IMG/VR virus record: IMGVR_UViG_3300001533_000136
Span: 1 to 20,681 of that record
Length of the DNA stretch: 20,681 nucleotides
Reading direction: 5' to 3' (one strand)
Origin: a virus
Below are positions 2,661 through 16,830 of the stretch, one piece after another. The stretch's first letter is position 1. Every line of letters begins with the position of its first letter. The notes under the pieces were generated by a model. It was not told the origin of the DNA. It saw only the letters and a list, made by a program, of their open reading frames with translations, and did no database searches. A program made the translations under genes and the position numbers.

Positions 2661-4268
2661 ATGACATTCAAATTCAGAACGGATTTTGGTCATACAGTCT
2701 TCAATTCTAAATACAGAAACACTGCAAATAATTGTGATACCTGGCCTGACCTGGCAGAAACTTTGGTTAGGTCAGTGTGTTCAAGGTATTTAGAACCCTG
2801 GGAGCAAAAGTATTTAGTTAAGTATATCACTGAAATGAAATTTATACCTGCCGGTAGGTACTTGTATTATGCTGGCAGACCTGTAAAATTCTTCAATAAT
2901 TGCTTTGCTATGATACCAGAGGACTCCAGGGAAGGCTGGGCAGAACTTGGTTATAATCATTTTATGGGACTTATGTGCGGCGGGGGTATAGGTACTTACT
3001 ATGGCAAAATAAGACCGAGTGGTTCAAAGATAAATAAGACAGGCGGAGAGGCATCAGGGCCTTTAAGTCTTATGTATTCTATGAATGAAATAGGCAGGAA
3101 TGTTAGGCAGGGTGGTGCAAGACGTTCAGCTTTGTATGCATCTCTTAACTATGATCATGCTAATGTAATGGAATTTATTCATGCAAAAGATTGGACAGAA
3201 GAGCAAATAGCAAGCAAGGCTAAGGATTTTAATTCAGCGGCACCGCTTGATATGACTAATATATCAGTAGGCTATGATACAATAGATTCTTTATATCATT
3301 GGAGTTTTGAAGAAACAGTCAGAAGTATGCTTAAGACTGGTGAGCCTGGGCTTAGTTTCAATATAAATAAGCCTGATGAAGTGGGACGGAATGCCTGTTC
3401 AGAGTTTATTACTGATAGAGATAGTGATCTGTGTAACTTGGGTAGTCTGAATCTTGCTAATATAAACTCACAAGAGGAACTTGAATCTGTTACAAAACTT
3501 GCAAGTAAATTTCTTGTATGCGGTTCCCTGGAAGCAGATCTGCCTTATGATAAATGTTATAAAGTACGTAATGATGTACGTAAAATAGGCTTAGGTCTAA
3601 TGGGTGTACATGAATGGCTACTCCAAAGAAAAAGTCCTTATACAGTAACAGGAGGGTTACATGACTGGCTTAAAACATATAAAGAAGCAAGCAAAGAATC
3701 TGCTGATTCTCTCACTAACAGGCTTGGGGTTTCTGGCTGTGTTCGTTATCGGAGCATTGCTCCTGCCGGTACTATTAGTATTATTGCTGGCACTTCTTCT
3801 GGTATCGAGCCTATCTTTTCTGTGGGTACAAAGCGTAGATATTTATCAGGAGATACGTGGAAATATCAGTACATTGTAGATCCGTTAGCTAAACAGCTTA
3901 TACAAGAAGGCATTGATCCTGATAGTATAGAAACTGCTGCTGATCTTGCTAAAGATCCTGAAAGGCGTATTAAGTTTCAAGCTGATATACAACAGTATGT
4001 TGATATGGGTATCAGTAGTACAATTAATTTACCTGCATACGGAACTGAGTTTAATAATAAAGACTTAGTTTATACTTATGTTAATTTATTCAGAAAGTAT
4101 GCTCCTAAGTTAAGAGGCATAACCTGCTATCCGGACGGTTCTCGGGGAGGCCAGCCTTTGACTACTGTTTCTTATGTTGAAGCCTTGGCAAATGAAGGAC
4201 AAGAATTTGAAGAGAAATATAATTTCTTGACAGAAGCATCCTGCCCTTCTGGAGCCTGCGGTATTTAG
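2661..4268 (+). CDS. Class II (adenosylcobalamin-dependent) ribonucleotide reductase
   Basis: 535 residues; reduces ribonucleotides to deoxyribonucleotides for phage DNA synthesis, using a B12-derived radical and no separate small subunit. The redox cysteines are C81 in FNNCF and C258 in DLCNLGSLNLA. The active-site triad is N244-x-C246-x-E248 in RNACSEF. The phosphate-binding loop is APAGTISIIAGTSSGIEP at 367-384. The protein ends in C528-PSGA-C533-GI, the C-terminal cysteine pair that re-reduces the active site. No nrdB-like gene follows, which agrees with class II. At 535 residues it is short for the family and lacks an N-terminal ATP-cone. The ribosome site is AAAGGAG before ATG 2661. An out-of-frame hydrophobic ORF lies inside (3661-3879). 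Confidence 0.92.
   Translation: MTFKFRTDFGHTVFNSKYRNTANNCDTWPDLAETLVRSVCSRYLEPWEQKYLVKYITEMKFIPAGRYLYYAGRPVKFFNNCFAMIPEDSREGWAELGYNHFMGLMCGGGIGTYYGKIRPSGSKINKTGGEASGPLSLMYSMNEIGRNVRQGGARRSALYASLNYDHANVMEFIHAKDWTEEQIASKAKDFNSAAPLDMTNISVGYDTIDSLYHWSFEETVRSMLKTGEPGLSFNINKPDEVGRNACSEFITDRDSDLCNLGSLNLANINSQEELESVTKLASKFLVCGSLEADLPYDKCYKVRNDVRKIGLGLMGVHEWLLQRKSPYTVTGGLHDWLKTYKEASKESADSLTNRLGVSGCVRYRSIAPAGTISIIAGTSSGIEPIFSVGTKRRYLSGDTWKYQYIVDPLAKQLIQEGIDPDSIETAADLAKDPERRIKFQADIQQYVDMGISSTINLPAYGTEFNNKDLVYTYVNLFRKYAPKLRGITCYPDGSRGGQPLTTVSYVEALANEGQEFEEKYNFLTEASCPSGACGI
3661..3879 (+). other. Possible overlapping gene: small hydrophobic membrane protein inside the reductase gene
   Basis: A 72-codon frame, shifted by one base from the reductase, beginning with ATG four bases after a strong Shine-Dalgarno (AGGAGGG, 3650-3656). 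The predicted protein has a basic N-terminus (MTGLKHIKKQAKN), then about 42 residues without a charge, with a proline near 36. It could form two membrane helices, followed by a short polar tail. That is a holin-like outline, and no other lysis gene is seen in the window. Caution: reductase codons ending in T automatically give NTN (hydrophobic) codons in this frame, so hydrophobicity alone is weak evidence. Low confidence. Confidence 0.2.
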
Positions 4269-4300
4269 TCTCAGGAAAGCAGAACATAGTTAAATTTTGA

Positions 4301-4344
4301 CGTTCAGAATTTTCTGGTATGTTTATATCAGGATTTTCTGAACG
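4301..4344 (+). terminator. Hairpin after the reductase gene (terminator or processing site)
   Basis: A perfect 9-bp stem, CGTTCAGAA (4301-4309) with TTCTGAACG (4336-4344), encloses a second stem CTGGTA/TATCAG with one G-U pair. It lies 32 bases past the reductase stop and 29 bases before the DUF3310 start. No run of T follows (CCCTTAAATC), so it is not a classic intrinsic terminator. An attenuator or RNA-processing hairpin is equally possible. Confidence 0.4.
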
Positions 4345-4373
4345 CCCTTAAATCAAACAAACGGGGGTTTAAA

Positions 4374-4616
4374 TTGAAAATAAAGCAGATATACCCAAAT
4401 GCCGGGGCCCTGGATTATCAGGAAGGCGGGGATCACTATACGAACTTCAAGATTCAGCCAGCAGAATATACGATTTTAAACGGTTTAGGATTTGCTGAAG
4501 GCAATGTTATCAAATATATTTCCAGGCATAATTCTAAAGGCGGGATTGAGGATCTGAGAAAAGCCAGACAGTATCTGGAAATGATAGCTGAAATTGTTTA
4601 TGAAGACGTACTCTGA
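4374..4616 (+). CDS. DUF3310 family protein
   Basis: 80 residues with the full family signature: GGDHYTNFKIQPAEYTILNG at about 18-37, GLGFAEGNVIKYISRH near 37-52, and KGGIEDLRKARQYLEM near 55-70. The family is widespread in phages and some structural work groups it with nucleotide-related helical proteins, but no activity is established. The start is TTG at 4374, preceded by CGGGGGT; no in-frame ATG lies in the conserved N-terminus, so TTG is favoured. It is the last gene before the long non-coding region and may be translated from the reductase transcript across the 4301-4344 hairpin. Confidence 0.88.
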   Translation: MKIKQIYPNAGALDYQEGGDHYTNFKIQPAEYTILNGLGFAEGNVIKYISRHNSKGGIEDLRKARQYLEMIAEIVYEDVL

Positions 4617-4622
4617 TTAAAC

Positions 4623-4715
4623 TTATACGACAATAAACGGCTTTTAGCCGAAGGCTGTTGTCAAATTTATACGACAATAAATTGTCAAATTTATACAATT
4701 GTATAATCCGATTGA
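4623..4715. repeat. Cluster of direct and inverted repeats after the DUF3310 gene
   Basis: TTATACGACAATAAA occurs at 4623-4637 and 4667-4681, and TTATAC recurs at 4691. TTGTCAAATTTATAC occurs at 4660-4674 and 4683-4697. Hairpins can form from CGGC-TTTTA-GCCG, from AGCC-GAA-GGCT (mutually exclusive with it), and from GACAAT-AA-ATTGTC (4673-4686). The cluster ends in the palindrome TTATACAATTGTATAA (4691-4706). A composite operator or transcription stop at the end of the metabolic gene block is plausible. The ATACGAC core is also shared with the T7 promoter, which may be chance. Confidence 0.55.
4691..4706. repeat. 16-bp palindrome TTATACAATTGTATAA, copy 1 of 3
   Basis: A perfect palindrome found again at 10296-10311 and 14840-14855. 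In base composition like this a given 16-mer would not be expected three times in 20 kb. Here it sits in non-coding DNA, between the repeat cluster and promoter copy 2. Candidate roles are a protein-binding operator or a hairpin core in RNA. Confidence 0.6.
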
Positions 4716-4771
4716 AAATCATATAATTCTAAAAATTCCAAATTTCAAAACCCTTGCCAGGCCTTGCTTTC

Positions 4772-4797
4772 TGAATCGTTACACTACAGGGGAGAGA
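4772..4797 (+). promoter_or_regulatory. Predicted phage promoter, copy 2 (T7-RNAP-like)
   Basis: This copy shares 21 of 26 bases with 2226-2251. Its right part, ACACTACAGGGGAGA, is close to the CACTATAGGGAGA initiation region of T7, K11 and related promoters, with one substitution and one extra G. Initiation would fall near the G run at 4789-4792. It lies directly before the AT-rich repeats and about 280 bases before the first gene of the structural block, so it is the likely source of the late transcript and possibly of an origin primer. Confidence 0.55.
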
Positions 4798-4799
4798 CA

Positions 4800-5040
4800 A
4801 TATATATAAACAGTATTATTAGAATATAAATATATTAATATATATATAAACAGTATTATTAATATTATTAGAATATAAATATATTAATATATATATATAT
4901 AAACAGTATTATTAGAATATAAATATATTAATATATATATAAACAGTATTATTAATATTATTAGAATATAAAAATATATATATATAAACAGTATTATTAG
5001 AATATAAATATACTAATATATAATTAAACAATATTATTAA
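4800..5040. repeat. AT-rich tandem repeat array, candidate replication origin
   Basis: About 240 bases almost entirely A and T. A 14-base marker, AAACAGTATTATTA, starts at 4808, 4848, 4901, 4941 and 4986, with a decayed copy at 5026. Spacings are 40, 53, 40, 45 and 40. Between markers runs GAATATAAATATATTAATAT and a variable number of AT steps. The second and fourth units carry an extra ATATTATTA, so short and long units alternate. No ORF crosses the array. An easily melted repeat just downstream of a phage promoter is the layout of the T7 primary origin. Confidence 0.7.
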
Positions 5041-5074
5041 CAGACCAGCTAACAGTCTGACAGGGAATTGGAAA

Positions 5075-5227
5075 ATGGATACAGAAGAAGAAATTTATGA
5101 TCTAATAAAACAAGCAGTAATTTCAGATATAAAAGAATCAAGAGAATCTGGATATGATTTAAATTCAGATCAAGAAGAGCTCAGATTAATTTATAATATA
5201 ACAGAGGAGGAATTGGAAATTGAATAA
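5075..5227 (+). CDS. Small acidic phage protein, 50 residues
   Basis: ATG at 5075 follows AGGGA (5062-5066) by eight bases. The frame runs MDTEEEIYDLIKQAVISDIK and continues with a second acidic stretch to ITEEELEIE. It overlaps the next gene by eight bases, and its 3' end supplies the GAGGAGG used by that gene, as expected of a real coupled pair. A short CAGAC/GTCTG stem lies just upstream (5041-5059). Predicted wholly helical and strongly acidic, with no recognised domain. It is the first gene after the AT-rich repeats. Confidence 0.6.
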   Translation: MDTEEEIYDLIKQAVISDIKESRESGYDLNSDQEELRLIYNITEEELEIE

Positions 5228-5757: not shown

Positions 5758-6083
5758 TGGCAACAGTTGCAGGATACTTAGGTGTATCTGTAGGTGCTAT
5801 GTTTTTTGGTGCTGCTACTGTAGCAATGGGTGCTTATTCTGCTTATGAGGCATCTTTACAGGAAGCTCCTGAGTTAAAAAAAGTAGATCCTATTGTAGAC
5901 AAGACTTCACAACAGGAAGCAGAAGAAGTAGAAGCCCCTGAACTTCTATCAGAAGAAGAAAAAAGACGTAAAAGTTTAGGTATAGCTCAGTTTACAATAG
6001 AACGAGATAAGCAAACAGAGCAACCGCAGCAAACAACTACTGGCGTACAAACACTAACAGATGTACCTGGAGTACAGATATGA
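5757..6083 (+). CDS. Small membrane-anchored protein upstream of portal
   Basis: 108 residues, starting in a TAATG overlap with the previous gene after TTGGAGGA. Residues 6-28 (GYLGVSVGAMFFGAATVAMG and a few more) form one clear hydrophobic, Gly- and Ala-rich helix, which could be a membrane segment. The rest is polar: acidic from 36 to 68, then EEKRRKSLGIAQFTIERD and a Gln/Thr-rich end. It overlaps the portal start by four bases. Proteins of this outline sit before portal genes in many T7-like phages and may be minor virion parts; a holin-like role with a single helix is possible. Function not recognised. Confidence 0.65.
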   Translation: MATVAGYLGVSVGAMFFGAATVAMGAYSAYEASLQEAPELKKVDPIVDKTSQQEAEEVEAPELLSEEEKRRKSLGIAQFTIERDKQTEQPQQTTTGVQTLTDVPGVQI

Positions 6084-7176
6084 GTGATATAAGATCAGAA
6101 AAAGGATATATAAAACAACGATATGAACAGTTATGTGAAACCAGACAGCCGTATATAGATAGAGCAGAGAAGTATGCAAGAGTAACTCTTAGGTATATAA
6201 TGCCAGAAGAAGGAGATAATTCAAGTACAGAATTTCAGAGAGACTTTAGTTCTGTGGGTGCTGATAATGTAAATACTCTGGCTAATAAATATATGCTTAC
6301 CCTGTTTCCGCCTAACAAATGTTTCTTTAGATTACAGCCGGCAGTAACAATGGAAACTGCTCAGCATTTGGGTATATCTAAAGCAGAAATGCAGACAATA
6401 CTTACACAGGCTGAAAGAGAAGCAAGATATAAATTCGAACAGAAACACGGCAGACCGGCATTGATTGATTTGTTAAAGCATTTGATTATAACAGGTAATG
6501 CTTTGTTATATTATCCTGATGATAATAATATTCAGATGTATGCTTTAGATCAATATGCTATAAATCGTAGTTTAGATAATCAGGTAACTGAAGTAATTAC
6601 AGAAGACAAAAAATCATTAGCAAGCCTGAATACAGAACTTAGAAAAAAAGTAATGTTGGCTTTGGAAATACCTGATGATACAGATTTACACAGACATACA
6701 GTAAGACTGTTTACTTATGTAAGACTTGATCCTGATAATGATAAATATCTTATTGTAGAACAGGCTGTAGAAGCAGAGCCTATTAATGAGCCTTTTAAAA
6801 TTCAAAGAACTAAGAATAGATGGATACCGCAGGTCTGGCAGATAACACGTAGAGAAACCTACGGAAGGGGCCTGGTAGAGGATCATTATGGTAGCCTATG
6901 GGCAATCTCTTGTTTATCAGAGGCTATCGTAACTGGTGCTGCTGTACTATCAGATATTAAATACCTGGTTAGGCCGAGTTCTGTTCTTGACGTAGTTGAA
7001 TTAAATAAGGCTGCTTCTGGTACTTATCATATAGGTGAAGAAGGAGACGTAACAGAGGTAAGTTCTGGTAAGACAAGAGACCTTCAGTTTATACAAGCTT
7101 TAATTGAGAAGTATGAAAGGCAGATAGGCAAATCATTCTTATCACTGTCAAGTCAGATGAGAAATGCAGAGAGGGT
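6080..7176 (+). CDS. Portal (head-tail connector, T7 gp8-like), exon 1
   Basis: Exon 1 encodes 365 codons plus two bases of the next; joined to 7942-8401 it gives a 518-residue portal, close to the 536 of T7 gp8. Twelve copies form the ring at one head vertex through which DNA is packed and ejected. Typical portal segments are visible: RQPYIDRAEKYARVTLRYIM near 15-34, LANKYMLTLFPPNKCFFRLQ near 67-86, RPALIDLLKHLIITGNALLY near 125-144, and MRNAERV ending at 366. Without splicing the frame runs into the intron and stops at 7258 with an unrelated tail. The start is the ATGA overlap with the upstream gene. Confidence 0.93.
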
Positions 7177-7941
7177 TGAAAAGTGGCTCTCTATAAACTA
7201 CTTTAAAACGGTGAACATCACGATAAGAATTCAATTCTACGTGACAATACCGTGCTAACAATTTAACTTTTTATTACAGGACATAACATGACCTATCAAA
7301 AAGTAGACCTTATGGTCCCAACCGTTCATGATTATACAATTGACACTGAGGGTGTTGTAATTAATACAACCCTTGGAAAAACCTTAAAAGGAACTAAGAT
7401 AACTAAGTCTAATAGATACGTAAAGATTATATTAGACAAACGTTATTTATTGCATAGATTAGTTGCTGAACACTTTATACCTAATCCTGATAATTTACCC
7501 CAGGTTAATCACATAGATGGTGATAGGTATAATAACGCAGCCAGGAACCTTGAATGGGTTAGTGCATCAAACAATGTACTACACGCTTACAAAACAGGTT
7601 TAAAGACGAACGCAGGAGAGATGAATCCCATAAGTATATTAACAGAAGATGTTGTGGTTGATATATGGCGTTTATCCAAAGAAGGACATAAACCAGCCGC
7701 TATTATACGTTTGTTGAAATTAAATGTATGCAGAGGTACTGTAAGCCAAGTAACGAACGGTAAGAACTGGACACATATAACAAATAAATTGTGAGTGTAA
7801 CGACTATCGGAAACGAGTAGGGGCAAGTGTCCCGAAACAAGTAGGTGCTTAACAGCGCAAGATATAGTCTACTCTACATGGTGACATGTAGCAGTTCATA
7901 AGAGAACGGGTAAGGATTAACGACCTTTATCGAATACAATG
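7177..7941 (+). ncRNA. Group I self-splicing intron in the portal gene
   Basis: 765 bases. P1 pairs exon AGAGGGU (7170-7176) with the guide GCUCUCU in the intron. It has six pairs plus the U-G wobble that marks the 5' splice site in group I introns. The intron ends in G (7941), and P10 is the pair of exon-2 CAC with the guide's GUG. After the ORF lie the P7 strands: CGACTATC (7801-7808) and AAGATATAGTCT (7859-7870), the classic conserved R and S elements. CTACATG-GTGA-CATGTAG (7874-7891) is a GNRA-capped stem, probably P9. ACGGT/ACCGT and TCACG/CGTGA stems (7208-7253) belong to the 5' core. Splicing here yields V-T-A-E-E in frame. Confidence 0.93.
7288..7794 (+). CDS. HNH homing endonuclease encoded in the intron
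   Basis: 168 residues, wholly inside the group I intron, with its stop just before the 3' half of the catalytic core. Such enzymes cut the intronless allele and copy the intron into it. The N-terminus (14-60) fits a NUMOD4-like DNA-binding start: YTIDTEGVVINTTLGKTLKG. The HNH_3 core has LLHRLVAEHFIPNPDNLPQ at 54-72, VNHIDGDRYNN at 73-83 and NLEWV at 87-91, with H56, H75 and N83 as likely metal-site residues. The C-terminus (110-165) holds LTEDVVVDIWRL...GTVSQVTNGKNWTHI, a helix-turn-helix recognition region. The ribosome site is weak (AGGACATAAC before ATG). Expected target: the MRNAERV-TAEE codons of intronless portal genes. Confidence 0.92.
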   Translation: MTYQKVDLMVPTVHDYTIDTEGVVINTTLGKTLKGTKITKSNRYVKIILDKRYLLHRLVAEHFIPNPDNLPQVNHIDGDRYNNAARNLEWVSASNNVLHAYKTGLKTNAGEMNPISILTEDVVVDIWRLSKEGHKPAAIIRLLKLNVCRGTVSQVTNGKNWTHITNKL

Positions 7942-8401
7942 CACGGCAGAAGAGAACAGATTAAGGGCACAAGAATTAGAACAGGCTCATGCAGGTGTAT
8001 TTAGTACATTAAGTCTGGAATTACAGAAGCCTTTAGCTACACTATTGCTTGATGAATTTGATATTACTCTAAAAGATTCTGGAATAGAATTGATTATTGT
8101 ATCAGGGCTTGATGCTATGGGAAGGGTATCAGACAATGAGAAAATTTTACAGTTATTTCAGGATTTGACTGTATTAAATAACATTCCAGAAGTATTACTT
8201 CCGATATTTAAATTTGTTGAAACTGTAAAATATCTGGCTAATGGTAGAGATGTCAGCGTAGATGATATAATTAAATCAGAAGAACAAATGCAACAGGAAC
8301 AACAGGCACAGCAGCAAGCAATGCAGGAGCAACAGGCAACAGATTCTTTAATGAAAAAGGCAGAACCTGATCAAATAGCAGAAGCTATGGAAAGCCGTTA
8401 A
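7942..8401 (+). CDS. Portal (head-tail connector, T7 gp8-like), exon 2
   Basis: The first base completes the valine codon GT/C left open by exon 1. The frame then reads TAEENRLRAQELEQAHAGVF, continuing the AERV-TAEE motif that is unbroken in other T7-like portals. The exon supplies 152 further residues, including LSLELQKPLATLLLDEFDIT and ELIIVSGLDAMGR. It ends in a Gln/Glu-rich low-complexity stretch (about 8286-8340) and the end EAMESR. This tail is usual for gp8 relatives. The frame has no start codon of its own at the exon boundary; an ATG- or TTG-started fragment would lack the conserved part. The scaffold gene follows after 11 bases. Confidence 0.92.
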
Positions 8402-9206: not shown

Positions 9207-10277
9207 ATGGCATTACAAGATATTAGTACTTATATAAATTATCCATTACAGGAAAACTTGGACGCAGACAGCACAAGTGATAACTTTGTAATGGCGATTG
9301 AGAAGTTTGATGCAACTGTACATACTACTGTACAAAAAGAATCAATTCTGTCTGGTATGTTTCAGTGGAAACCGCTGATTGGTACAGACACAATGTCTAA
9401 TGCAGCAATGGGTGATCCTATTCTTCAGGCAGTTACGCCTGGTGTAGAGCCTGCTGGCAAGCCTATTGAAACAGGTAAGATGATTGTACAGGTAAAGACA
9501 CCGATTATTGCAAGGGTAACAGAACCCATGCTGGCTGCTGTACAGGATCATCTGGACATTAAGAGCAGAACTCCTGCTAACTTTGGTAAAAAAATTGGTA
9601 AGCATGAAGACGAAGTACTGTTTGTACAGACTGTAAAAAGTATCCTGTATGAACATGAAACTATCGTACCTATTCATCCGTCTGATAGTGGTACTGCTGT
9701 ATCAAATAAGGGTACAGGTGGTATTCTTATTCGGGGTACTACTGTTACTCTTAACTCTCCTGGTGATGAAACAGATGCCGATGAAATGGATACCGCAGTA
9801 ACAAGCCTGCATCAGCAGCTTGCAGAAGCAGATCTTGATCCTATGTCAGATGGTTATCTGTATATGGCACCTGAGCAGTACTTTACTCTGCTTAAATCTG
9901 ATAAGCTTATCAATGTAGATTATTCATCTGGTAACGGTAACTATGCCGGTGCTATGGTATCAAGAGTTTCTGGACTGCCTATTAAAATGACCAATAGAAT
10001 GTCTCAGACTCAGAATGATTCAAGCTCAGGCGGTGATACCACAAACGGTGATACTATTTATGAACTGTATGGTTCTGCTTATGCTACTTCAGCAACAGAA
10101 GCAAAGATTGTAGCACAGTATATTTCAAGCCAGACTATTATGGTAGCTGCAAGTATTCCTCTTACTACTAAAGTATATTGGGATGATAGGCTGCTTTGTT
10201 GGTTTATTGATTCATACGAAGCCTTTGGCGCTGCTCCTGACAGAACAGACCTTTGTGGTGGAATCTTTAAAGCTTAA
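9207..10277 (+). CDS. Major capsid protein (T7 gp10A-like, HK97 fold)
   Basis: 356 residues, close to T7 gp10A (345). It forms the hexamers and pentamers of the icosahedral head. Start ATG 9207 with TAAGGAAAT. Visible features: TTVQKESILSGMFQWKPLIG near 39-58, the loop and spine region EPAGKPIETGKMIVQVKTP near 81-99, MDTAVTSLHQQLAEADLDPM near 194-213, and the late segment VSRVSGLPIKMTNRM near 252-266. A Ser/Gly/Asn/Asp-rich loop follows (SQTQNDSSSGGDTTNGD, about 267-283). This insertion may be surface exposed. No second shorter or frameshifted form (10B type) was noticed at the 3' end. A long hairpin follows the stop. Confidence 0.92.
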   Translation: MALQDISTYINYPLQENLDADSTSDNFVMAIEKFDATVHTTVQKESILSGMFQWKPLIGTDTMSNAAMGDPILQAVTPGVEPAGKPIETGKMIVQVKTPIIARVTEPMLAAVQDHLDIKSRTPANFGKKIGKHEDEVLFVQTVKSILYEHETIVPIHPSDSGTAVSNKGTGGILIRGTTVTLNSPGDETDADEMDTAVTSLHQQLAEADLDPMSDGYLYMAPEQYFTLLKSDKLINVDYSSGNGNYAGAMVSRVSGLPIKMTNRMSQTQNDSSSGGDTTNGDTIYELYGSAYATSATEAKIVAQYISSQTIMVAASIPLTTKVYWDDRLLCWFIDSYEAFGAAPDRTDLCGGIFKA

Positions 10278-13938: not shown

Positions 13939-16830
13939 ATGGATCTGACAAAAACAGCTTTAGGAAGCCCGTTTGCTGGCTTTCAGAAAGCTAAAACAGT
14001 AAATCCTAATAGAACAGCACAGGTACTCCAGCAAGCTACTACTTTGGGGGCAGGGTTAGCAAAAGAATACAGGAAAACTCAAAGAAACACAGAAGAAAGA
14101 AAAGCAAAAAGAGATATACTTAATAATAGTATTAATCCAGATTTGCAAGAAAGCTCTGCTATATATGCAGGCAAGATTCTTGAGTACGAACAAACAGAAA
14201 AGTTTAATCAATACAAGCAAGGTATCAAAGAAGGCAAGTATGATACTGTAAAACCTGAAGACTTTCAAAAAGAGCTTGATTCTGAGTATGAATCTTTCTA
14301 TAAACAAACAGAGGATAGTGATTACTCTGACTTACTGCAAGAAGTACATTCTAATTTTTGGTTAAAGAATGAAGAGTCTTTGGTTGCTTCTCAACGTGGT
14401 GTTGCAACTAAGCGTACACAAATGGATCAGCAGAACTTATTTATCAAAGATGCTTCTGCTAAATTTCAGAGTGTTGATAATGTAGAGAATACTAAAAAGA
14501 CTGTTGATTATTTGATGCAGAAAGGTGCAGGTGATCTTGTATCAGAAGAATTTAAGAAAAAATCTTTAATGACAACTGCTGTAGCAGAGGCTATGAAAGG
14601 TAAGGATTATCTGTTATCTGAAATGGAAAACAGATACAGTGTCAGTTCTGATCCTGCTTTAGCTGGTATATACAGATCAGGATTATCTGTTTATTCTGAG
14701 GCTGTAAAAGAACAAGATGATTTATATGATCTTAATACAAGAAAAGATTTAACAGATAAATCTAATAACGGTACACTTATTTGGGCAGACATAGAAAAAG
14801 CTGCTGAAGACCCTAAGGTAAAAATAACGCCCAATAAACTTATACAATTGTATAATAAAGGGCAAGAAAATCTTAAAGTAAAGAAACAAATGGACATGGC
14901 TTCAATTGCCTTGGCAGAAGGCCGGTCTGTTGATGCTGTTGGCCTGAGTGAGAAAGATCTACAGGAAGTATTTACTAACAGAATACAGGGATTAAGTAGC
15001 AATATTGAAGACCCTGAGAAGTTAGGATCAGCTATTGCTATGAATTTTGCAAACGTAGACGATACTCCTGAAGAGCTTACAAAAGAAATAAATACTTTTT
15101 CAGATGCAATGTTATTTGATAAAGATAAACCTTCTAAGCTTATGCTTGATACTTATAAAATGTTTAGAGGTATTGACAAAAGTAAGAATTATTCAAGAGC
15201 GCAATTTGATAGATTATTCAAAGGTAATGCTGAAGCATTGAGAACTTATAATACTATCAAACAGTATACAGGTGCAATGCAGGGTAATTATGATGAAAGA
15301 ATTACTGCTGCTTTGACTAAGGTAGAGCAGATAAGAGAAGGCAAAGACAGGATTCATCCTAAAGTAATACAGTCAAAACTTGAAGAAGCCGAGACAGGAT
15401 TCTCAGATTTCTTAGGAGACAAAGATCATTTCTGGTGGTTTAATAATACCGATTCTGAAATTATGCGCAGCTTTTATAAACCTATGTACTTGAAGTTTGT
15501 AGAACAGGAAATGCGAGCAGGGTATTCATTAGAAACTGCACAGGAAACAGCGCTATCTCTTACTAATAATATGTTTAGTTATGAGTTTGGACAGATCCAA
15601 TATACTGAAGGTGTTCCTATTTCAAAACGTACAGGATTCAAGAATACAGATGAACTTGATACAGCTTTTGAAACTGTTGTATCAGAAGACTTACAGGTTA
15701 AAGAGCAATTGATTGAGGCTTTTGGGCCTGATTATGACGTAAATGATCATAGTATCTATTATGATAATGATACAAATGTTATACATATAGGCGGTGAAGA
15801 GGGTTTAGGTGTAAGTATAAATACAGAAACTCTTAAAGGTAAGTACTTAAAAATTCTTGATTCCAAAGCAGATGAAATAAAAGAAGAGAGAAAAGAACAT
15901 GCAAGTGCATTACAGCATAGACAAGCTGCCGATGAAGTAAGTAAGAATAATCAGATAGCTCATATACTGCTTGATGCAGAAAGAGGAACTACTGGTGATG
16001 CCTTGTTTGGATATCAAAAACACAATTCAGCTAAAGTAAGATCAATACTTAATGATTTGCCTGGTAATTTTAAAGGATTAACTTTTAAACAATATGACTC
16101 ATTATCAACTTCTGATAAAAAAGAATTCAGAAAAGTATTTTTAGATGCTTTGTCAGATAATCAGTATATACCTGGAGTAAGTACACCGTTCTGGAAGAAG
16201 TTATTTATAGATGGTGATAAAGTAATTCCTTATGATTCTTTGGTCAATAAGCTATTTGATAAGAAGAAAGAATACAGTACAGGATTACAATTATCTGGTA
16301 TAGGTGGTGTAGCAGAAAGACCAAAACCTGATGCTGATTCTGTTAGTTGGGTAAATATTACACAACAGACTGATCTTGAAAAAGGATTAATGGAAGTAGA
16401 GAATGGTATTAATCAAGGATTAAAGGATGATAAATTTTACCCTTATGGATCTTTAGAAGGTGGAACAGATACTATTGGCTATGGTCATAAACTTACAAAA
16501 GAAGAACAAGAATCTGGTAAATACTCTGATGGTATTACTGTAGCTCAGGCAAAAGATTTGCTTAATAAAGATATAGACAAAGCAGAAAACAGACTAAAGA
16601 GTAGTTGGCCTGGTTATGAAGCCTTGCCTGATAAGTATAAAGATATATTAATTTCTATTTCTTTTAACGTAGGGAATGTTGATCCCAAATCCTGGCCCAA
16701 ACTTAAAGCAGCTATGGAAGAAGGCGATGATGAGAAAGTAAAAGAAGAAATGGCTACCTCTTATACAGTAGGGGATAAAAAGATACAATTATCAAGTAGA
16801 CGTGATACATTAGCTGATCTATTATTATAA
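13939..16830 (+). CDS. Internal virion protein (T7 gp15-like) with C-terminal lysozyme domain
   Basis: 963 residues, versus 747 for T7 gp15. The first 800 or so are helical and charged, like gp15, which forms the periplasmic tunnel. The opening is MDLTKTALGSPFAGFQKAKT, with many YKQ/EYE helices after it. The last 150 residues form a T4-lysozyme-like (GH24) domain: GLMEVENGIN at 816-825, then EGGTDTIGYGHKLT at 840-853, and ISISFNVGNVD at about 910-920. E819 or E821 is the likely acid, with E840 and T845 in the usual D and T places. It should cut peptidoglycan during DNA entry. Ribosome site AAAGGAG before ATG 13939. A copy of the 16-bp palindrome lies inside (14840). Confidence 0.85.
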   Translation: MDLTKTALGSPFAGFQKAKTVNPNRTAQVLQQATTLGAGLAKEYRKTQRNTEERKAKRDILNNSINPDLQESSAIYAGKILEYEQTEKFNQYKQGIKEGKYDTVKPEDFQKELDSEYESFYKQTEDSDYSDLLQEVHSNFWLKNEESLVASQRGVATKRTQMDQQNLFIKDASAKFQSVDNVENTKKTVDYLMQKGAGDLVSEEFKKKSLMTTAVAEAMKGKDYLLSEMENRYSVSSDPALAGIYRSGLSVYSEAVKEQDDLYDLNTRKDLTDKSNNGTLIWADIEKAAEDPKVKITPNKLIQLYNKGQENLKVKKQMDMASIALAEGRSVDAVGLSEKDLQEVFTNRIQGLSSNIEDPEKLGSAIAMNFANVDDTPEELTKEINTFSDAMLFDKDKPSKLMLDTYKMFRGIDKSKNYSRAQFDRLFKGNAEALRTYNTIKQYTGAMQGNYDERITAALTKVEQIREGKDRIHPKVIQSKLEEAETGFSDFLGDKDHFWWFNNTDSEIMRSFYKPMYLKFVEQEMRAGYSLETAQETALSLTNNMFSYEFGQIQYTEGVPISKRTGFKNTDELDTAFETVVSEDLQVKEQLIEAFGPDYDVNDHSIYYDNDTNVIHIGGEEGLGVSINTETLKGKYLKILDSKADEIKEERKEHASALQHRQAADEVSKNNQIAHILLDAERGTTGDALFGYQKHNSAKVRSILNDLPGNFKGLTFKQYDSLSTSDKKEFRKVFLDALSDNQYIPGVSTPFWKKLFIDGDKVIPYDSLVNKLFDKKKEYSTGLQLSGIGGVAERPKPDADSVSWVNITQQTDLEKGLMEVENGINQGLKDDKFYPYGSLEGGTDTIGYGHKLTKEEQESGKYSDGITVAQAKDLLNKDIDKAENRLKSSWPGYEALPDKYKDILISISFNVGNVDPKSWPKLKAAMEEGDDEKVKEEMATSYTVGDKKIQLSSRRDTLADLLL
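14840..14855. repeat. 16-bp palindrome TTATACAATTGTATAA, copy 3 of 3, inside the gp15-like gene
   Basis: Identical to the copies at 4691 and 10296. It is read in frame as part of LIQLYNK. GCCC (14829-14832) and GGGC (14860-14863) flank it, so a longer stem like that at 10287-10320 could form with small unpaired gaps. A coding location makes plain terminator function less likely and a bound regulator or RNA hairpin more so. Confidence 0.55.

Follow-up and report, generated by a model that had tools for sequence, protein, structure and literature searches.

The locus poses the question of why the portal (head-tail connector) gene of an Autographiviridae-like phage breaks off at AERV and continues with TAEE in another frame 765 nt further on. 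The window, i.e., the whole stretch of DNA analyzed, is a viral contig fragment of 20,681 bases of the metagenomic type with T7-like head genes, and the first-pass annotation had attributed the break to a group I intron. Our answer, given with high confidence, is that codon 366 of the portal gene is interrupted by a mobile intron of group IA2 (td-type) whose P6 loop holds an HNH homing-endonuclease gene; splicing, cutting, and homing are predicted from sequence. The main elements are as follows:

6080–7176, plus strand: portal (head-tail connector) exon 1 (Pfam Head-tail_con, 2.2e-35; PHROG 449 positions 7–362).
7177–7941, plus strand: td-like group IA2 intron, 765 nt (leave-out covariance models R1 and R2; covariation).
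7288–7794, plus strand: predicted HNH homing endonuclease ORF, 168 aa, in the P6 loop (Pfam HNH_3, 2.9e-8; PHROG 59, 2.4e-37; I-HmuI (1u3e), 2.4e-8).
7942–8401, plus strand: portal exon 2 (PHROG 449 positions 364–508; spliced protein colinear with intronless portals).

Both exons matched one portal family, PHROG 449, in register (7–362, then 364–508), and their joining gave a single open portal of 518 aa reading ...AERV/TAEENR..., which bore out the claimed frame break. Exon 1 ends with AGAGGGT at 7176 and exon 2 begins with CACGGCAGAAGAG at 7942; the predicted spliced junction is GAGAGGGT/CACGGC (ligated exons ...GAGAGGGU/CACGGC...), and self-splicing with exon ligation would restore the 518-aa reading frame. 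The alignment with other portals that the first-pass annotation had proposed was colinear and gapless at the junction. In the intronless portals aligned with the spliced protein, A363, E364, R365, V366, and T367 were invariant, so that the insertion site (ERV/TAEE) falls within the portal's most conserved motif. Intact portals read ERVTAEE here, and one metagenomic contig (L099) reads ADRVTAEE. The exon-1 frame continues for 27 codons beyond the break, codon 366 counted, and then stops, and exon 2 does not open with a start codon, the first one listed lying at 8045.

The Rfam covariance search for Intron_gpI (RF00028), also proposed at the first pass, failed: no Rfam model matched the window at the gathering threshold, and with a relaxed threshold RF00028 reached 23.6 bits against a gathering value of 50, with its 5′ half placed inside the ORF. 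The T4 td intron is an experimentally known self-splicer, and as a control it gave no Rfam match even at E 0.5; the introns of relatives likewise stayed under the gathering threshold. Since td was missed too, the Rfam negative is uninformative, and passing the gathering threshold is not a defining group I feature. Rfam misses both introns since an ORF interrupts the core of each, the difficulty also described for cores split by nuclease loops (PMC11878797). Leave-out models were therefore built from the portal-site introns of other phages with the window excluded, R1 spanning P7 to the 3′ end and R2 the exon end through P4. R2 matched 7169–7258 (E 1.3e-16) and R1 matched 7795–7941 (E 2.4e-33, 148.6 bits), both E-values being rough due to short calibration, with no second match of either model anywhere in the 20.7 kb window. 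Both models detected T4 td, the positive control, and in the intronless portal loci searched neither matched at the portal site.

The insert is thus a td-like group IA2 intron, in which every core helix (P1, P3–P9.2) can be placed. The predicted RNA elements are:

7170–7176, plus strand: P1 5′ strand, AGAGGGU, at the end of exon 1, last pair U·G; pairs with 7186–7192.
7183–7192, plus strand: internal guide sequence, GUG (7183–7185; P10, with CAC 7942–7944) and GCUCUCU (P1 3′ strand).
7198–7203, plus strand: P3 5′ strand, CUACUU; pairs with 7839–7844.
7208–7253, plus strand: P4-P5-P5a domain (P4 7208–7212/7249–7253, P5 7218–7222/7240–7244, P5a 7226–7230/7234–7238).
7258–7265, plus strand: P6a 5′ strand, ACAAUUUA; pairs with 7785–7792, overlapping the ORF end.
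7802–7806, plus strand: P7 5′ strand, GACUA, guanosine-binding helix; pairs with 7865–7869, invariant in 12 introns.
7807–7833, plus strand: P7.1 (7807–7809/7814–7816) and P7.2 (7820–7824/7829–7833), IA2-type extra helices, read directly.
7839–7858, plus strand: P3 3′ strand (7839–7844) and P8 (7845–7849/7854–7858).
7874–7931, plus strand: P9 (7874–7880/7885–7891, GUGA loop), P9.1 (7894–7897/7904–7907), and P9.2 (7909–7915/7925–7931).

P1, P10, P7, the GNRA (GUGA)-capped P9, and the terminal G, on which the intron had originally been recognized, were all present. Its borders, 7177–7941, came out exactly as first proposed and were fixed independently by the introns of relatives: all 11 distinct introns at this portal codon have U before the 5′ splice site and a terminal G, and these, together with P1, P10, and all other introns of the set, determine the exact junctions. 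The window intron ends in G7941, G being terminal in 12 of 12 introns, and its 5′ splice site lies at the U7176·G7186 pair of P1, a U·G pair kept in 11 of the 12 (the td cell is U-A in the automatic alignment). A junction shifted by one base (7178–7942) was rejected: it keeps Val-Thr, but the intron would end in C and the U·G pair would be lost. In the same border placement the td intron measures 1016 nt, its known length.

Covariation was counted for P1, P3, P4, P5, P7, P7.1, P7.2, P8, P9, P9.1, and P9.2 on 12 introns, in which 93.4% of the cells were paired. Two-sided changes affected 35 pairs and 95 cells, compared with 17.8 pairs and 28.0 ± 4 cells in shuffles; the covariation score was 0.462 versus 0.180 in shuffles and 0.046–0.095 in slid versions, above all 500 shuffles and every slid control. 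MAFFT misaligned one intron (contig L047) in P7.1/P7.2; it was kept, which could only lower the pair counts. The conserved core (P3, P4, P5, P7, P8) was present with covariation, the P3 pseudoknot showing two-sided changes in all six pairs and P7 being invariant. Between P7 and the P3 3′ strand lie the extra helices of the IA2 type, P7.2 (96.7% paired, four pairs altered on both sides) and a short P7.1, which in the window has 3 bp with a GAAA loop, less than in the relatives. P6a, outside the covariation set, was placed from the direct complementarity in the window, and no clear P6a pairing was found in contig L024. Given the leave-out E-values, the lack of a second match, and covariation exceeding all shuffles and slid controls, the structure is not chance complementarity, and the group I assignment made at the first pass is supported by the models and by covariation across relatives. 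In the portal-site intron of L047 (1620–1735) the P1 loop is enlarged by a long additional hairpin and the usual P9.2 is missing; this intron is an independent-looking variant at the same portal codon.

Neither the HNH ORF nor the affinity to td had been mentioned in the first-pass annotation. The HNH_3 match was above the Pfam cut-off, and the HNH domain together with the homology to I-HmuI points to an I-HmuI-like HNH homing endonuclease, which would cleave the intronless allele near the insertion site, as the recurrence at one site and the tree conflict described below indirectly suggest. CAGGA at 7277–7281, 6 nt before the ATG, is likely the ribosome-binding site, and the stop codon sits at the P6a 3′ strand. 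NCBIfam gave no match for the HNH or portal proteins.

The same portal site is occupied elsewhere. By blastn, the 3′ half of the intron matched 594 phage records, the best being Pectobacterium Phimunavirus (80%), and nothing was found with the 5′ half, which is short and variable. Slant, PP90, and Pseudomonas Ep4 have an HNH ORF between two ‘collar/connector’ ORFs, and in Slant and Ep4 the intron borders were placed at the same portal codon as in the window. Overall, about 33 Pectobacterium Phimunavirus records, Pseudomonas Ep4, and no fewer than eight distinct lineages of metagenomic phages have the site occupied. Scanning IMG/VR with a single portal protein returned no relatives, while an alignment-based scan did, and a 3′-junction pattern scan followed by tblastn turned up numerous contigs that combine a td-like core and an HNH ORF with a gap in the portal at this codon. 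Of 80 portals sampled blind to the intron, by a pattern upstream of the insertion site, four (L047, L062, L070, and L075) were interrupted at this codon and 76 were intact. The nearest portal relative of the window, L024 (67%), also has the intron. The codon before the intron was the arginine codon AGG in 10 of the 11 set introns (AGA in the other) compared with 3 of 82 intact sites, the kinship of the rows being uncorrected; this bias fits a preference for the target (P1) and co-conversion of the flanking sequence alike.

Other td-like introns were seen near some of these portals. A second one lies in the L024 major capsid gene at 4220–5160 and has its own HNH ORF (4432–4980); R1 matched it at 5001–5160 with 116.9 bits. 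The window capsid gene (9207–10277) is uninterrupted. Downstream of the portal, td-like introns were also located in L048 (4296–5085, portal intact) and L027 (8477–9105, portal interrupted).

The HNH identity between the window and ten relatives was 51–60%, the portal identity 25–67%, and the closest portal relative had the lowest HNH identity. The portal tree grouped the window with L024 (97/98), whereas the HNH tree grouped it with L047 (100/98). The HNH data rejected a window + L024 clade (p-AU 0.0017), and the rejection of window + L047 by the portal data was marginal (p-AU 0.056). This conflict between the two trees supports horizontal homing of the intron. In the proposed sequence of events, the portal pre-mRNA would fold and P7 would bind a guanosine for attack just after U7176, a position held by the U·G pair of P1; the freed exon 1 would then attack after G7941, aligned by P10, so that the exons are ligated into one portal mRNA and the 765-nt intron is released. 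Where a co-infecting phage has an intronless portal gene, the HNH protein made from the intron ORF would cut or nick it at the highly conserved site, and repair would copy the intron across. We consider it rather probable that a single clade of td-like introns with I-HmuI-like HNH nucleases has long used ERV/TAEE of the T7-type portal gene as its homing site, that it jumps between phages whose portals are only 25–40% identical, and that it went unrecognized as an intron since annotators split the gene.

In 8 of the 11 portal introns the exon-1 frame stops at intron nucleotides 29–31, just before P4. The frame of the window, where the P1 loop is 1 nt shorter than in L024, stops at 80–82; because it reaches that far, ribosomes would run on into P4-P5 and might disturb folding. 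Such a 27-aa read-through tail reaching P6, unlike in most relatives, and the shortened P7.1 are what might be expected of a group I intron that has decayed and lost splicing, leaving a truncated portal of 392 aa in a possibly defective phage. This reading is improbable: all core helices are paired, with P7 invariant and P1, P10, and the terminal G intact, a high score was obtained in the leave-out search (148.6 bits), the HNH ORF is uninterrupted and retains its motif, and exon 2 is open and portal-like along its whole length.

A free-standing HNH gene that split the portal into halves assembling as separate proteins, with no splicing, would agree with the database annotation of PP90, Slant, and Ep4 as separate ORFs and with the wording ‘splitting ORFs’ in PMC6115819. 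It is very improbable, however, as a covarying group I core flanks the ORF on both sides, exon 2 lacks an initial start codon, and the split lies inside an invariant motif. Least credible of all, to the point of being nearly negligible, are an assembly error, chance complementarity, or an intein. Although the window is a metagenomic-type virus fragment, the recurrence of the insertion at the same codon in independent contigs and isolated phages already refutes these readings, and an intein needs one open frame, which is broken here by stops.

The mobile intron has several known counterparts. Group I introns of phages are textbook knowledge, those of T7-like phages being known in DNA polymerase genes. 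T4 td (group IA2, I-TevI) shares P3–P9.2 with P7.1/P7.2, an ORF in the P6 loop, and about 74% identity along much of its 3′ half, but it resides in a thymidylate synthase gene and encodes a GIY-YIG endonuclease instead of an HNH one. I-HmuI of the SPO1 DNA polymerase intron is a homologous HNH protein in a group I intron (E 2.4e-8) with another target gene; nuclease activity of the window protein is predicted. The introns of the Autographiviridae phages Jarilo, ULINTec4, and VL73 have a td-like core found by R1/R2, yet they interrupt DNA polymerase and not a virion gene. Group I introns with homing endonucleases in head genes are represented by the LittleE capsid (PMC3706429) and the crAss-like MCP (PMC7886860), in the capsid rather than the portal and in unrelated phages; a terminase intron is also known among virion-gene introns (PMC8541194). 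Closest are the introns of Phimunavirus (Slant, PP90, and others) and Ep4, with the same codon, td-like RNA (80% identity, 3′ half), and homologous HNH proteins (53–59%), although their portals are only about 30% identical to that of the window and are annotated as separate ORFs, and in Slant and Ep4 the P10 pairing, read directly, is absent or weak.

The portal location had been put forward as the novelty; the virion-gene target stands, but its implied newness is smaller, the site being occupied in Phimunavirus and Ep4 and the split of the PP90 head-tail connector ORF by a homing endonuclease having been noted in 2018 (PMC6115819). The word ‘intron’ is absent from the main text of PMC6115819, which gives the PP90 case as a split ORF only, and the open-access literature, the scope of the search, yielded no paper in which an intron at this portal site is named; the recurrent portal site thus seems undescribed as an intron. 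Phage group I introns have been described as favoring nucleotide- and DNA-metabolism genes (PMC12350094), and the recurrent portal site suggests that late genes for virion proteins serve just as well as homing targets across phage lineages where they contain a near-invariant motif. Moreover, interrupted portals are mis-annotated as truncated genes, and portal phylogenies and gene counts miss exon 2. The window and its relatives also offer natural material on ribosome entry into the intron versus splicing.

Three other genes of the window deserve mention. A free-standing endonuclease VII-like gene at 717–1157 (Pfam Endonuclease_7, 3.6e-13) adjoins an exonuclease gene. The ribonucleotide reductase large subunit at 2661–4268 is short (535 aa), having the barrel domain and little of the usual N-terminal part, and a large internal-virion-type protein at 13939–16830 carries a C-terminal phage lysozyme domain (PF00959, residues 841–955).
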